Shown one piece after another: positions 21,665 through 28,401 of a stretch of 35,686 bases of DNA (position 1 is its first letter; each line of letters opens with the position of its first letter). Under the pieces are notes generated by a model. The model ran no database searches and had not been told where the DNA came from. It saw only the letters and a program-made list of their open reading frames with translations. The position numbers and the translations under genes were made by a program. Origin of the DNA: a bacterium (GTDB taxonomy: Bacteria > Patescibacteriota > Minisyncoccia > Phycocordibacterales > PALSA-1337); assembly GCA_025355565.1 (NCBI GenBank), contig JANXZK010000024.1, positions 1 through 35,686 of the forward strand. The letters are read 5' to 3'.

Positions 21665-22102
21665 CTATTTACTGTCCGCTGATAATCTCAATCTTACATT
21701 ATCTGAATATATCGAATTCTCGACATTTTTTTGTATCGCGGTTGTCAATATGAAAAGGACCAATAGGGTCATTATACCTCCAACGATCGGCAAAGAAGAA
21801 GCTGTTGATAGCAGAAACTCTTTCCAATTTTGGATCATATAGGCACCGTCAGAGAAGACAAGTGAGAGATATTCCCTGAAGCCAGATTGAGAAGAGCTCT
21901 GCAATATGAAATATATGATAGGTATGAGCGCGATAACCGCCACTATAGAAATGGTCTTGTACGCTATTGATTTCCTATGTGATCGAGTGACTTCGAACTG
22001 TTCGACGCGGCATATTACAGATTTCAATATTCTATTGCAGACTTCGGTATCCTGATTCATGTTAGTTGATATACGACGGCTTTTGGTATCCTGGTGCATC
22101 AT
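21665..22102 (-). CDS. Small two-TM membrane protein, candidate anti-sigma factor
   Basis: ATG overlaps the upstream sigma factor stop (CTATGATG); cytoplasmic N-terminus and two hydrophobic segments. Confidence 0.5.
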   Translation of the reverse strand: MMHQDTKSRRISTNMNQDTEVCNRILKSVICRVEQFEVTRSHRKSIAYKTISIVAVIALIPIIYFILQSSSQSGFREYLSLVFSDGAYMIQNWKEFLLSTASSLPIVGGIMTLLVLFILTTAIQKNVENSIYSDNVRLRLSADSK

Positions 22103-22704
22103 AGTGATTTGTCGTCCTTTAATGATTTACGCAGATTTATGAGTGCCCGGCGATGCCAGCTTTTCACTGTATTCATCGGTCTTTTCATAACCTTGGCTAT
22201 CTCATCGAATGTGAGCTCCTCTTGATAATGCAGGGTGATCACCGTCTGATGGTCAGGGTGCAAAAGCCCGACGGCCTTGGCCAAGATATCGGCCTTGGCT
22301 GTGTTGTCGAATATGTCTCCCTGTAACAGTTGGCCGTCTTCCAGTGTATCAGAAAATAGCAGATCATTTTCATCGTCATCAAGATCTGAGAACGTCATGG
22401 CTTTCTTCTTCTTTATATGATCTAGTGCCGTGTTTCGAGCGATCGTGTATAGCCACGGCCTGAATCTCATGCCTTTCTTGTGCTGTTTGATATTCTTCCA
22501 AACTTTGAAAAATGTGTCCTGGGTCATATCTTCGGCAATATCTCCCACCTGCGCATATCTGCGCACAAAGTTCATGATCGGTCGTATATACCTACGGGTG
22601 AGTTCTTGAAATGCGATCTCGTCCAGTTTCTTGCATTCTTGGGCAAGTTCTTCATCGGTCATAGTGCTGTAGTCGACGTTGTACGATGTTTCAGTATCGA
22701 TCAT
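22099..22704 (-). CDS. ECF-like RNA polymerase sigma factor (sigma-70 family)
   Basis: Region 2 FVRRYAQVGDIAEDMTQDTFFKVWKNI...RPWLYTIARNTALDHIKKKK; region 4 LHYQEELTFDEIAKVMKRPMNTVKSWHRRALINLRKSL. Confidence 0.9.
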   Translation of the reverse strand: MIDTETSYNVDYSTMTDEELAQECKKLDEIAFQELTRRYIRPIMNFVRRYAQVGDIAEDMTQDTFFKVWKNIKQHKKGMRFRPWLYTIARNTALDHIKKKKAMTFSDLDDDENDLLFSDTLEDGQLLQGDIFDNTAKADILAKAVGLLHPDHQTVITLHYQEELTFDEIAKVMKRPMNTVKSWHRRALINLRKSLKDDKSL

Positions 22705-22710
22705 AGTTCT

Positions 22711-22716
22711 ATGATA
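22711..22716 (-). promoter_or_regulatory. -10 element TATCAT, 6 nt before sigma factor ATG (leaderless-type)
   Basis: Minus strand: TATCAT-AGAACT-ATG. Confidence 0.55.
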
Positions 22717-22754
22717 CTATATTTTCTCGATTATCCTTAATCCGAACAGTATGT

Positions 22755-22760
22755 TATGAT
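22755..22760 (+). promoter_or_regulatory. -10 element TATGAT, 6 nt before small ORF ATG
   Basis: TATGAT-TGGCCC-ATG. Confidence 0.55.
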
Positions 22761-22766
22761 TGGCCC

Positions 22767-22871
22767 ATGGCAAAAAGAGCAACAGGTATAGAGAAAAATC
22801 GCACTTCACGTTCGAGAAAGACCAAGAAGCGTCTGGCGAAGAAGAATGCTTGGAAGAACAACAAGAAGTAG
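22767..22871 (+). CDS. 34-aa highly basic small protein (not in ORF track)
   Basis: ATG..TAG encodes MAKRATGIEKNRTSRSRKTKKRLAKKNAWKNNKK; own -10 element upstream, T-run downstream. Confidence 0.6.
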   Translation: MAKRATGIEKNRTSRSRKTKKRLAKKNAWKNNKK

Positions 22872-22963: not shown

Positions 22964-24379
22964 TCATTTCTTCTTTCGGAGTTCTATGCCGAGTTCTCTG
23001 AATTGTCTCTCGCCAATCTCGCTAGGTGCTCCCATCATCAAGTCTTTACCTTCACCGGTCTTGGCGTAAGCGATGACTTCACGAATGTTCGGCTCATTTT
23101 GTAGGATCATAACGGTGCGGTCTATACCAGGTGCAAAGCCGCCATGAGGTGGTGTGCCGAAACGGAATGCTTCGAGCATATGCCCAAACTTCTTCTGTTG
23201 TTCTTCAGGAGAGATGCCGAGATATTCAAATACTTTCTGCTGCATATCAGCCTTGTGTATGCGTATGCTGCCTGAGCTCAATTCATAACCATTCAATACT
23301 AGGTCGTATGAATTTGCACGGACTGACATGATGTCCTTACCGGCCATGAATTTCTCTATGTCTTCTTCTTTGATCGAACAAAATGGATGATGTGCAGCCT
23401 GCATATTACCGTTCTCATCTTTCTCGAACATAGGGAAGTCGACGATCCAGGCGAATGCCAGCTCATCTTTGTCATTCTTGTCTTTTCTCATATCCGGCTT
23501 ATCTGAACCAAATTGCTTCATTGATTCCGCATAAGTTAATCGCGGGAATGGCGTATTAGTGATCTTCTTGTTCGGATACAAAGTTTTTACTAACTCTATG
23601 AACATCGTTTCAGTGAACGTGAGGATTTCCTCTTGGGTGATGAATGACATCTCATAGTCTAGTTGAGTGAATTCTGGTTGACGATCTCCGCGGGTGTCTT
23701 CATCGCGGAAACAGCGTGCTATTTGGAAATATTTCTCAAAGCCGGCAACCATAGACATTTGCTTGAATTGTTGAGGTGATTGAGGTAGCACGTAAAATTT
23801 GCCGTTTTCCAATCTCGAAGGTACGACATACTCTCTGGAACCTTCTGGTGTTCCTTTCATCAGTATCGGTGTTTCGATTTCTACGAAGCCAGTATTATGC
23901 ATGTAGTTGCGGAAGAATGAGATGATCTTGTCTCGGTTGCGGATATTGGCTTGCATTCGAGGACGGCGCAAGTCCAAGTATCGATATTTGAGGCGTGATT
24001 CTTCGTTGATATCTCTACCATCGCCCCTCACATCGAATGGCGGAGTCTGCGCTTCATTCAACACTTCGATCTTCTTCAGTTCGATCTCGATGTCTCCATT
24101 TGGTTCGATCTCGCCAGTTTCCTTGTTCTTGGAGATCATCTTTTCCGGTCTCTTGTTCACGATACCAGTTGCCGTAACGACCCATTCTGAGCGCACTTTG
24201 TTTGCGACTTCATGAGCTTCTCTGTTGCTCGGCAAGGCGACCGCCTGGACCTTGCCGGACATGTCTCGAAAATCGATGAATATCAGCTTTCCATGATCGC
24301 GTCTCACGTCAACCCATCCAGAAATAGAGATCTCTTTGCCGACGTGTTCTTTTAGGTCCTTTATATATGTTCTTTGCAT
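22964..24379 (-). CDS. aspS: Aspartyl-tRNA synthetase, bacterial-type, apparently lacking the GAD insertion domain
   Basis: GWVDVRRDHGKLIFIDFRD, YLDLRRPRMQ, ETPILMKGTPEGSREYVVPSR, RCFRDEDTRGDRQPEFTQLDYEMSF, GGFAPGIDRTVMIL; FGSDKPDMR is followed almost immediately by AFAWIVDFPMF. Confidence 0.95.
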   Translation of the reverse strand: MQRTYIKDLKEHVGKEISISGWVDVRRDHGKLIFIDFRDMSGKVQAVALPSNREAHEVANKVRSEWVVTATGIVNKRPEKMISKNKETGEIEPNGDIEIELKKIEVLNEAQTPPFDVRGDGRDINEESRLKYRYLDLRRPRMQANIRNRDKIISFFRNYMHNTGFVEIETPILMKGTPEGSREYVVPSRLENGKFYVLPQSPQQFKQMSMVAGFEKYFQIARCFRDEDTRGDRQPEFTQLDYEMSFITQEEILTFTETMFIELVKTLYPNKKITNTPFPRLTYAESMKQFGSDKPDMRKDKNDKDELAFAWIVDFPMFEKDENGNMQAAHHPFCSIKEEDIEKFMAGKDIMSVRANSYDLVLNGYELSSGSIRIHKADMQQKVFEYLGISPEEQQKKFGHMLEAFRFGTPPHGGFAPGIDRTVMILQNEPNIREVIAYAKTGEGKDLMMGAPSEIGERQFRELGIELRKKK

Positions 24380-27210: not shown

Positions 27211-28401
27211 ATGAATTATACAAACAAGACAAAGTATTTGATCGCTAGCGCAGTATTTGCCATCGCTTTTTTGACGATGATCGCACTGCCTGCTTCGACC
27301 AACGCGTGTGGTCATGGTGGCTATAATGAATGCGGATATGAAGCTCCTCATCAGCCGACCTATATACAACAGAGGCCAGTGTACGTCTCTCAACCTATCG
27401 TGCAACGTCCGATCATCCAGCAACCTGTATATATACCACAGCCTGTGATCCAACAGCCAGTTTACGTGCAACAGCAACCTATTTATATACAGCAACCTGT
27501 GATCCAACAGCCAGTCTACGTCCAGCCACAGCCAGTATATATCCAGCAACCTGTGATCCAGCCGGTTTATATCGCACCGCTAACTGTTTCTTGTACCGCA
27601 AACAACAGTTACAACGGCGGCTACAACAATTACAATAATAGCTACAACAACGGGTATAATAACGGCTATAATAACTACAACAACGGTTACAACAATTCTG
27701 TAACCTGGACAGCTTACGCTTCCGGAGGCAATGGAGGCTACTCATATAGCTGGTCAGGAACAGATGGATTGTATGGAAATGGTCAATCGATCAACTTCAA
27801 TTACAATAATGCCGGTTCGAAGAATGCCTATGTAACGGTCTATTCAAATGGTCAGTCTGTGACACAGAGCTGTACTACGTATGTCTCCGGTCCACAGATC
27901 GTCTATCAGCAACCTATAATCCAGCAACCGATCATTCAACAGCCTTCATACAATCTAAACATCGGTTGTTACGTTGATCCAATGAATGCTCGTGTCAATC
28001 AGCCAGTCACATGGTCTGTAGAAGTCACTGGCGGTATGGCTCCATACTCATATACTTGGAGTGGTTCTGAAAATCTCACTGGTTCGCAATCATCTGTAAC
28101 CAAGTTCTATGATTATCCTGGCGCAAAGAATGCTATCGTCACAGTAACTTCAGCTGACGGTAGAACTGGAACTCGCGCATGTAGTAACTCTCTAACGGTC
28201 GCCGGCGCAACGAAGAGCTACGCTTACAAAGCTCCGGTAAAAGTCGTTCAGGTTCCTGTTGTACAAACGGATAACTCAAACCAGACGGCTGCTTCGATCT
28301 TCTCACTGTCAAATGTTCCGTGGGGTTGGGTAGCGATACTCATTATCTTGGTCCTCTTCGTGACGGTTATGTATCTCTTGCTTAACAAACAAAAGATCTG
28401 A
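27211..28401 (+). CDS. Secreted/anchored Gln-Pro-Tyr and Asn-Gly-Tyr repeat protein with two PKD-like segments and C-terminal TM
   Basis: Signal-like N-terminus, (QQPVY/IQQPVIQQPVYV) and (YNNGYNN) repeats, paired segments WTAYASGGNGGYSYSWSGTDGL / WSVEVTGGMAPYSYTWSGSENL, terminal WVAILIILVLFVTVMYLLLNKQKI. Confidence 0.8.
   Translation: MNYTNKTKYLIASAVFAIAFLTMIALPASTNACGHGGYNECGYEAPHQPTYIQQRPVYVSQPIVQRPIIQQPVYIPQPVIQQPVYVQQQPIYIQQPVIQQPVYVQPQPVYIQQPVIQPVYIAPLTVSCTANNSYNGGYNNYNNSYNNGYNNGYNNYNNGYNNSVTWTAYASGGNGGYSYSWSGTDGLYGNGQSINFNYNNAGSKNAYVTVYSNGQSVTQSCTTYVSGPQIVYQQPIIQQPIIQQPSYNLNIGCYVDPMNARVNQPVTWSVEVTGGMAPYSYTWSGSENLTGSQSSVTKFYDYPGAKNAIVTVTSADGRTGTRACSNSLTVAGATKSYAYKAPVKVVQVPVVQTDNSNQTAASIFSLSNVPWGWVAILIILVLFVTVMYLLLNKQKI

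Follow-up and report, generated by a model that had tools for sequence, protein, structure and literature searches.

A short, leaderless-type gene of Patescibacteria encodes a conserved, strongly basic protein that may be an accessory component of the ribosome

Several of the smallest ribosomal proteins, such as bTHX (also known as Thx) and bS22, are short, very basic and sit in rRNA. In Actinobacteria, bL37 and another small protein were left unannotated until the mycobacterial ribosome was solved by cryo-EM (PMC5876184). The ribosomes of the CPR lack some of the standard ribosomal proteins, in a lineage-specific pattern (PMC12641178), and our literature search found no structure of a Patescibacteria (CPR) ribosome, so that a tiny lineage-specific component could have escaped notice in this group. 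The closest described parallel for the gene start analysed below comes from the leaderless genes of Deinococcus-Thermus and Actinobacteria, for which the excerpted text of a 2011 survey describes a TANNNT motif ~10 bp before the start (PMC3160421).

The window, that is, the whole stretch of 35,686 nt analysed here, is contig C7 of a host genome of 832 kb (99.7% complete, 27 contigs) and carries a gene for such a small basic protein, the only copy in that genome. The gene and its surroundings comprise the following features:

22099..22704, minus strand: divergent sigma-70 family gene (regions 2 and 4; sequence and neighbour analysis)
22711..22716, minus strand: -10 box TATCAT of the sigma factor gene, 6 nt before the sigma ATG at 22704 (direct reading)
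22752..22753, plus strand: TG of an extended -10 motif (TGTTATGAT; direct reading)
22755..22760, plus strand: -10 box TATGAT of the peptide gene (direct reading, homologous loci and genome-wide peak)
22767..22778, plus strand: ATGGCAAAAAGA, start of the message, conserved as nucleotides (codon conservation in 139 loci)
22767..22871, plus strand: gene of the 34-aa basic protein MAKRATGIEKNRTSRSRKTKKRLAKKNAWKNNKK, ATG start, TAG stop (sequence, homologues and purifying selection)
22964..24379, minus strand: class II aminoacyl-tRNA synthetase gene (D/K/N type), convergent downstream neighbour (ORF reading and neighbour analysis)

The gene had been singled out in a sequence-only reading, which gave the coordinates, the ATG and TAG and the length of 34 aa correctly and counted 16 Lys/Arg residues where there are 15 (10 K and 5 R, 44%); the pI is ~12. 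Among 4000 ATG-initiated ORFs of 25–60 aa in the host genome, six reach at least 40% K/R and only the 34-aa gene combines such a composition with a -10 box 6–7 nt before the ATG. The sigma factor is divergent from it, as that reading had it, with 62 nt between the two genes. The TTTTTT to which it drew attention does follow the TAG directly; a scan, nevertheless, found no plus-strand hairpin, so that this tract is not a canonical terminator of the peptide gene. Elsewhere in the window, an ORF of 396 aa (27211–28401) consists of QPVYIQQP-type and then YNNGYNN repeats with a hydrophobic stretch near the C-terminus, and looks like a repetitive surface protein.

Homologues are widespread. At E ≤ 1, the single sequence on its own matched 32 of the 60 relatives searched, among them representatives of further families within the order; one of the listed matches (L028) is false. 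The conserved peptide that had been proposed for checking in relatives was recovered by a 26-row profile in 95 and by a 70-row profile in 97 of the 247 genomes of the order. In a phylum sample, the latter profile was positive in 37 of 379 genomes (~10%), including lineages outside the class, and 80 loci were retained when 84,980 species of bacteria and archaea were scanned. All informatively titled records in that scan belong to Patescibacteria (Kaiser-, Wolfe-, Falkow-, Nomura-, Levy-, Shapiro- and Amesbacteria, among others), the remainder being titled just ‘bacterium’ or ‘uncultured bacterium’; Parcubacteria-type and Microgenomates-type lineages are both represented, and the family appears to be found only in Patescibacteria so far. 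After removal of duplicates, 139 distinct loci constituted the family set, with weak loci L028, L080, L083 and L084, which have no MAKR start, left out as false. E-values are unreliable for sequences so short and biased, and what supports the family is instead the invariant positions of the alignment, pN/pS and the context of the start site. The gene is usually present as a single intact copy per genome, with few exceptions; two copies were seen in genome G205 (contigs C5 and C22) and in one MAG, JAGLIN (L121 with L155). Among genomes of the order that are at least 90% complete, 88 of 216 (~40%) are positive, which is far from near-universality, and this patchy occurrence argues against an essential core component; accessory ribosomal proteins may be patchy too. 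A viral origin was rejected, given that none of 55 pattern matches in IMG/VR was confirmed.

The family proteins are 31–53 aa long (median 40) with a mean K/R content of 42%, and follow the consensus MAKR-x(6-10)-SxSxKTxKR[LI]xxK, followed by a variable K/R tail. Positions M1, R4, K18, K21, R22 and K26 are invariant, A2, K3, S14, S16, T19 and L23 are nearly so, and Cys is absent from all members but one. A gene tree (39 columns) was poorly resolved and did not recover the window's genus as a single clade. Some members of this genus carry N-terminal subtypes (e.g. MAKRASQDIKNKTSRS) closer to those of other families than to their own genus (L006, L009, L010 and L020 compared with L016, L033 and L061), possibly reflecting transfer or ancient subtypes.

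The sequence-only reading was right that the gene has its own promoter and that TATGAT lies 6 nt before the ATG, the spacer being TGGCCC; it overlooked the TG of the extended -10 motif, and missed both the leaderless meaning of the layout and its commonness in the genome. With the -10 box scored as a TATAAT-like hexamer with at least five of six matches, 81 of the 139 loci have one 6–9 nt before the ATG; four-offset windows elsewhere give 10–20, and shuffles give 11.4 on average (maximum 21). The extended -10 motif was rejected as a family feature, with TGn at the corresponding position in only 5 of the 139 loci. SD-like motifs before the peptide gene show no enrichment across the 139 loci (6 versus 6 in the control window). 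The spacing between -10 box and ATG is a common format of the host genome and not special to the peptide gene: across 614 host ORFs, the -10 hexamer is most frequent at distances of 6 nt (61 genes) and 7 nt (36), with a shoulder at 8–9 nt (20 and 28) and ~2–18 genes at other offsets. The layout is shared by 48 of the 156 genes heading a same-strand run, the control window giving 16. Nor do the 614 ORFs show an excess of SD-like motifs (46 versus 56 in the control), and no convincing match to 16S rRNA was present in the host assembly. A -10 box 6 nt before the ATG would put the first nucleotide of the transcript on the A of the ATG or beside it, making the peptide gene leaderless; as in leaderless genes, the family combines a -10 box at 6–9 nt with no SD, conserved in homologues. 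The A-rich early codons are kept as nucleotides (GCA in 109, AAA in 135 and AGA in 115 of the 139 loci), while later Lys/Arg codons vary freely over all synonyms; throughout the host genome, gene starts show a weaker preference for A. Conservation of the first 12 nt is consistent with selection on the initiation of leaderless mRNA. The positions 22711–22760 accommodate divergent, apparently leaderless promoters of the sigma factor and the peptide within one 62-nt gap.

A frame that is short and lysine-rich, falls into no annotation family and has a prevalence of ~40% in the order could be a chance ORF, or an RNA element (a small RNA or a leader) misread as one. However, in 17 close pairs of homologues pN/pS is 0–0.17 in 16 cases and 0.30 in one, at pS of 0.18–0.86, so that divergence is mostly synonymous, whereas the flanks are mostly 20–60% identical in ungapped comparison; this combination of low pN/pS and diverged flanks, as computed, identifies the peptide as a selected protein. 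The loss of the frame in relatives that would have spoken against the gene was looked for, and the frame was instead found intact, also across classes, with length differences between members amounting to whole codons. There is no Rfam match at the peptide locus. Conservation, pN/pS (the earlier proposal having been to determine dN/dS) and the conserved -10 box thus bear out the proposal that a basic peptide gene, left unannotated, is driven by a promoter of its own; we consider it virtually certain that the ORF at 22767–22871 is a real protein-coding gene and exceedingly improbable that it is a chance or RNA feature. As for the kind of protein, none of the members searched with hmmscan (26 and 14) was above the cut-off of a Pfam or NCBIfam family, single-sequence searches of Pfam, NCBIfam and the PDB with the 34-aa peptide gave no match, and PHROG returned no credible match for any member. 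No chain of a solved ribosome proved similar: one family profile (A2) found no PDB chain at E ≤ 10 and the other (A1) just the C-terminus of yeast eS24 (E ~6), rejected as chance. Membership in bTHX, bL37, bS22, bL28, bL32, bL34, bL35, bL36, bS20 or bS21 did not emerge, insofar as these libraries contain models of them, and a likeness to the bL28 N-terminus seen by eye was dropped as no family match accompanied it. The only recurrent weak matches were to bL32, at positions 2–24 in both Pfam and NCBIfam (E 0.12–0.5), with a best score of 12.0–12.7 bits against cut-offs of 21.3 and 22.6; by eye, RTSRSRKTKKR also resembles RATRSHRNNRR of the host's own bL32. The peptide could accordingly be imagined as a bL32 paralogue or a shortened remnant of bL32 that kept the N-terminal rRNA-binding tail after loss of the zinc domain, but full bL32 coexists with it in the host and is present in 54 of the 60 relatives, which shows that the peptide is no replacement, and hhalign of the two profiles gives a probability of 0.6%. 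Degeneration or replacement of bL32 was therefore rejected, and a bL32 ancestry of any sort strikes us as very unlikely. Replacement of bL9 was rejected as well, because many peptide-positive genomes, the host included, have bL9, whose presence or absence is independent of the peptide.

Gene context is not conserved overall, and no conserved ribosomal-protein operon context was seen among the loci. In ~8 loci of the genus, the peptide gene is accompanied by a divergent sigma factor gene and the same two additional genes; MsrA-type reductases recur in other loci. Judged by strict motif matching, 9 of the 139 loci (12 with Pfam) have a DEAD-box RNA helicase gene as immediate neighbour in the same orientation; they belong to the genus and to several further lineages. 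Among its 614 ORFs, the host has one gene of this type. The adjacency, chosen after inspection of many neighbours and absent from most loci, is suggestive of work on RNA or the ribosome. BipA (Pfam) and, as recognised by eye, cold-shock, HPF-like and ABC-F-like proteins are neighbours in few loci. A small Gly/Arg-rich treble-clef zinc-finger protein, possibly RNA-related, recurs nearby (L009, L010, L025, L050, L089, L097, L111 and L148), with PF23477 found in six direct neighbours. The recurrent helicase, together with the cold-shock-domain-like and zinc-finger neighbours at other loci, would suit an RNA chaperone or helicase cofactor that anneals or coats RNA with the DEAD-box helicase during cold-shock remodelling or decay, without being a ribosome component; yet the helicase is adjacent in a small minority of loci and mostly lies 31–450 nt away, so that an obligatory operon is not indicated, and, since DEAD-box helicases of this kind are tied to ribosome assembly, the explanation overlaps with a ribosomal one. 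We regard it as rather unlikely. The sequence-only reading offered RNA or ribosome binding and a nucleoid peptide side by side, and the former probably provides the better account. A DNA-compacting basic peptide reminiscent of a histone H1 tail would fit the 44% Lys/Arg, the pI of ~12, the short length and the presence of Cys in one member only. Nevertheless, twelve positions that are invariant or almost so, together with the very low pN/pS, point to specific contacts and to more specificity than would be expected of a non-specific DNA-coating tail, the MAKR start and the tail-plus-helix layout are ribosomal-protein-like, and no chromatin-type neighbours were seen; a nucleoid role is unlikely.

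An AlphaFold2 model computed with the family alignment shows an extended tail (residues 1–16) and a helix (17–33), with a mean pLDDT of 84.6 and a pTM of 0.43. Small, strongly basic, built of tail plus helix and usually encoded in single copy, the protein has the build of ribosomal proteins. The invariant basic residues, the tail and helix, the MAKR start, the small size, the single copy and the bL37 precedent favour a lineage-specific, tiny rRNA-binding accessory ribosome protein or assembly factor, an explanation that, judged from sequence, has about an even chance of being correct. RNA polymerase would begin transcription on the A of the ATG or beside it, and ribosomes would engage this leaderless transcript. 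The product, a basic N-terminal tail (MAKR..SxSxKT) followed by a C-terminal basic helix (KTxKRLxxK), would insert into rRNA and act there as an accessory ribosomal protein or as a factor for late assembly or stabilisation. More tentatively, and with somewhat greater chances of being wrong than right, the family may represent an undescribed Patescibacteria-specific ribosomal protein (undescribed meaning no match in Pfam, NCBIfam, PHROG or PDB) that is present in several deep lineages of Parcubacteria and Microgenomates types, fills an rRNA site particular to reduced ribosomes and is expressed from leaderless mRNA, a format that, as part of the same proposal, would be common in SD-poor Patescibacteria genomes.

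In the Patescibacteria, a vast bacterial group whose ribosomes are reduced, a conserved, selected tiny basic protein is a concrete candidate component for the first maps of these ribosomes. The peptide was missed through length cut-offs, illustrating how standard annotation hides a phylum-specific gene, and a -10 box 6–9 nt before an ATG provides a simple rule to find other small genes in SD-free genomes.

Compared with known systems, the gene start resembles the leaderless genes of Deinococcus-Thermus and Actinobacteria in having a -10 box directly before the ATG and no SD, but belongs to a CPR genome that is reduced and in which SD motifs show no enrichment whatsoever; Patescibacteria do not figure among the groups discussed in the excerpted text of the 2011 survey (PMC3160421). 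The protein shares a similar-looking basic motif with the N-terminal tail of bL32, yet has no zinc ribbon, coexists with canonical bL32 and fails to align with it at the profile level. The character of bTHX without its sequence, as the sequence-only reading put it, is consistent with our results: like bTHX (Thx) and bS22, the peptide is short and very basic, whereas no family member matches any ribosomal family model in Pfam or NCBIfam or a PDB chain. Relative to bL37, which is ribosome-bound, the peptide belongs to another phylum, has no sequence match in the PDB profile search, is often longer and has a predicted C-terminal helix, its own binding to the ribosome being putative; nevertheless, both are tiny, lineage-restricted and basic, and bL37 too was overlooked in annotation until a cryo-EM map revealed it. 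By analogy, the best reading is that the peptide works like bL37, bTHX or bS22 while being a member of none of these families.
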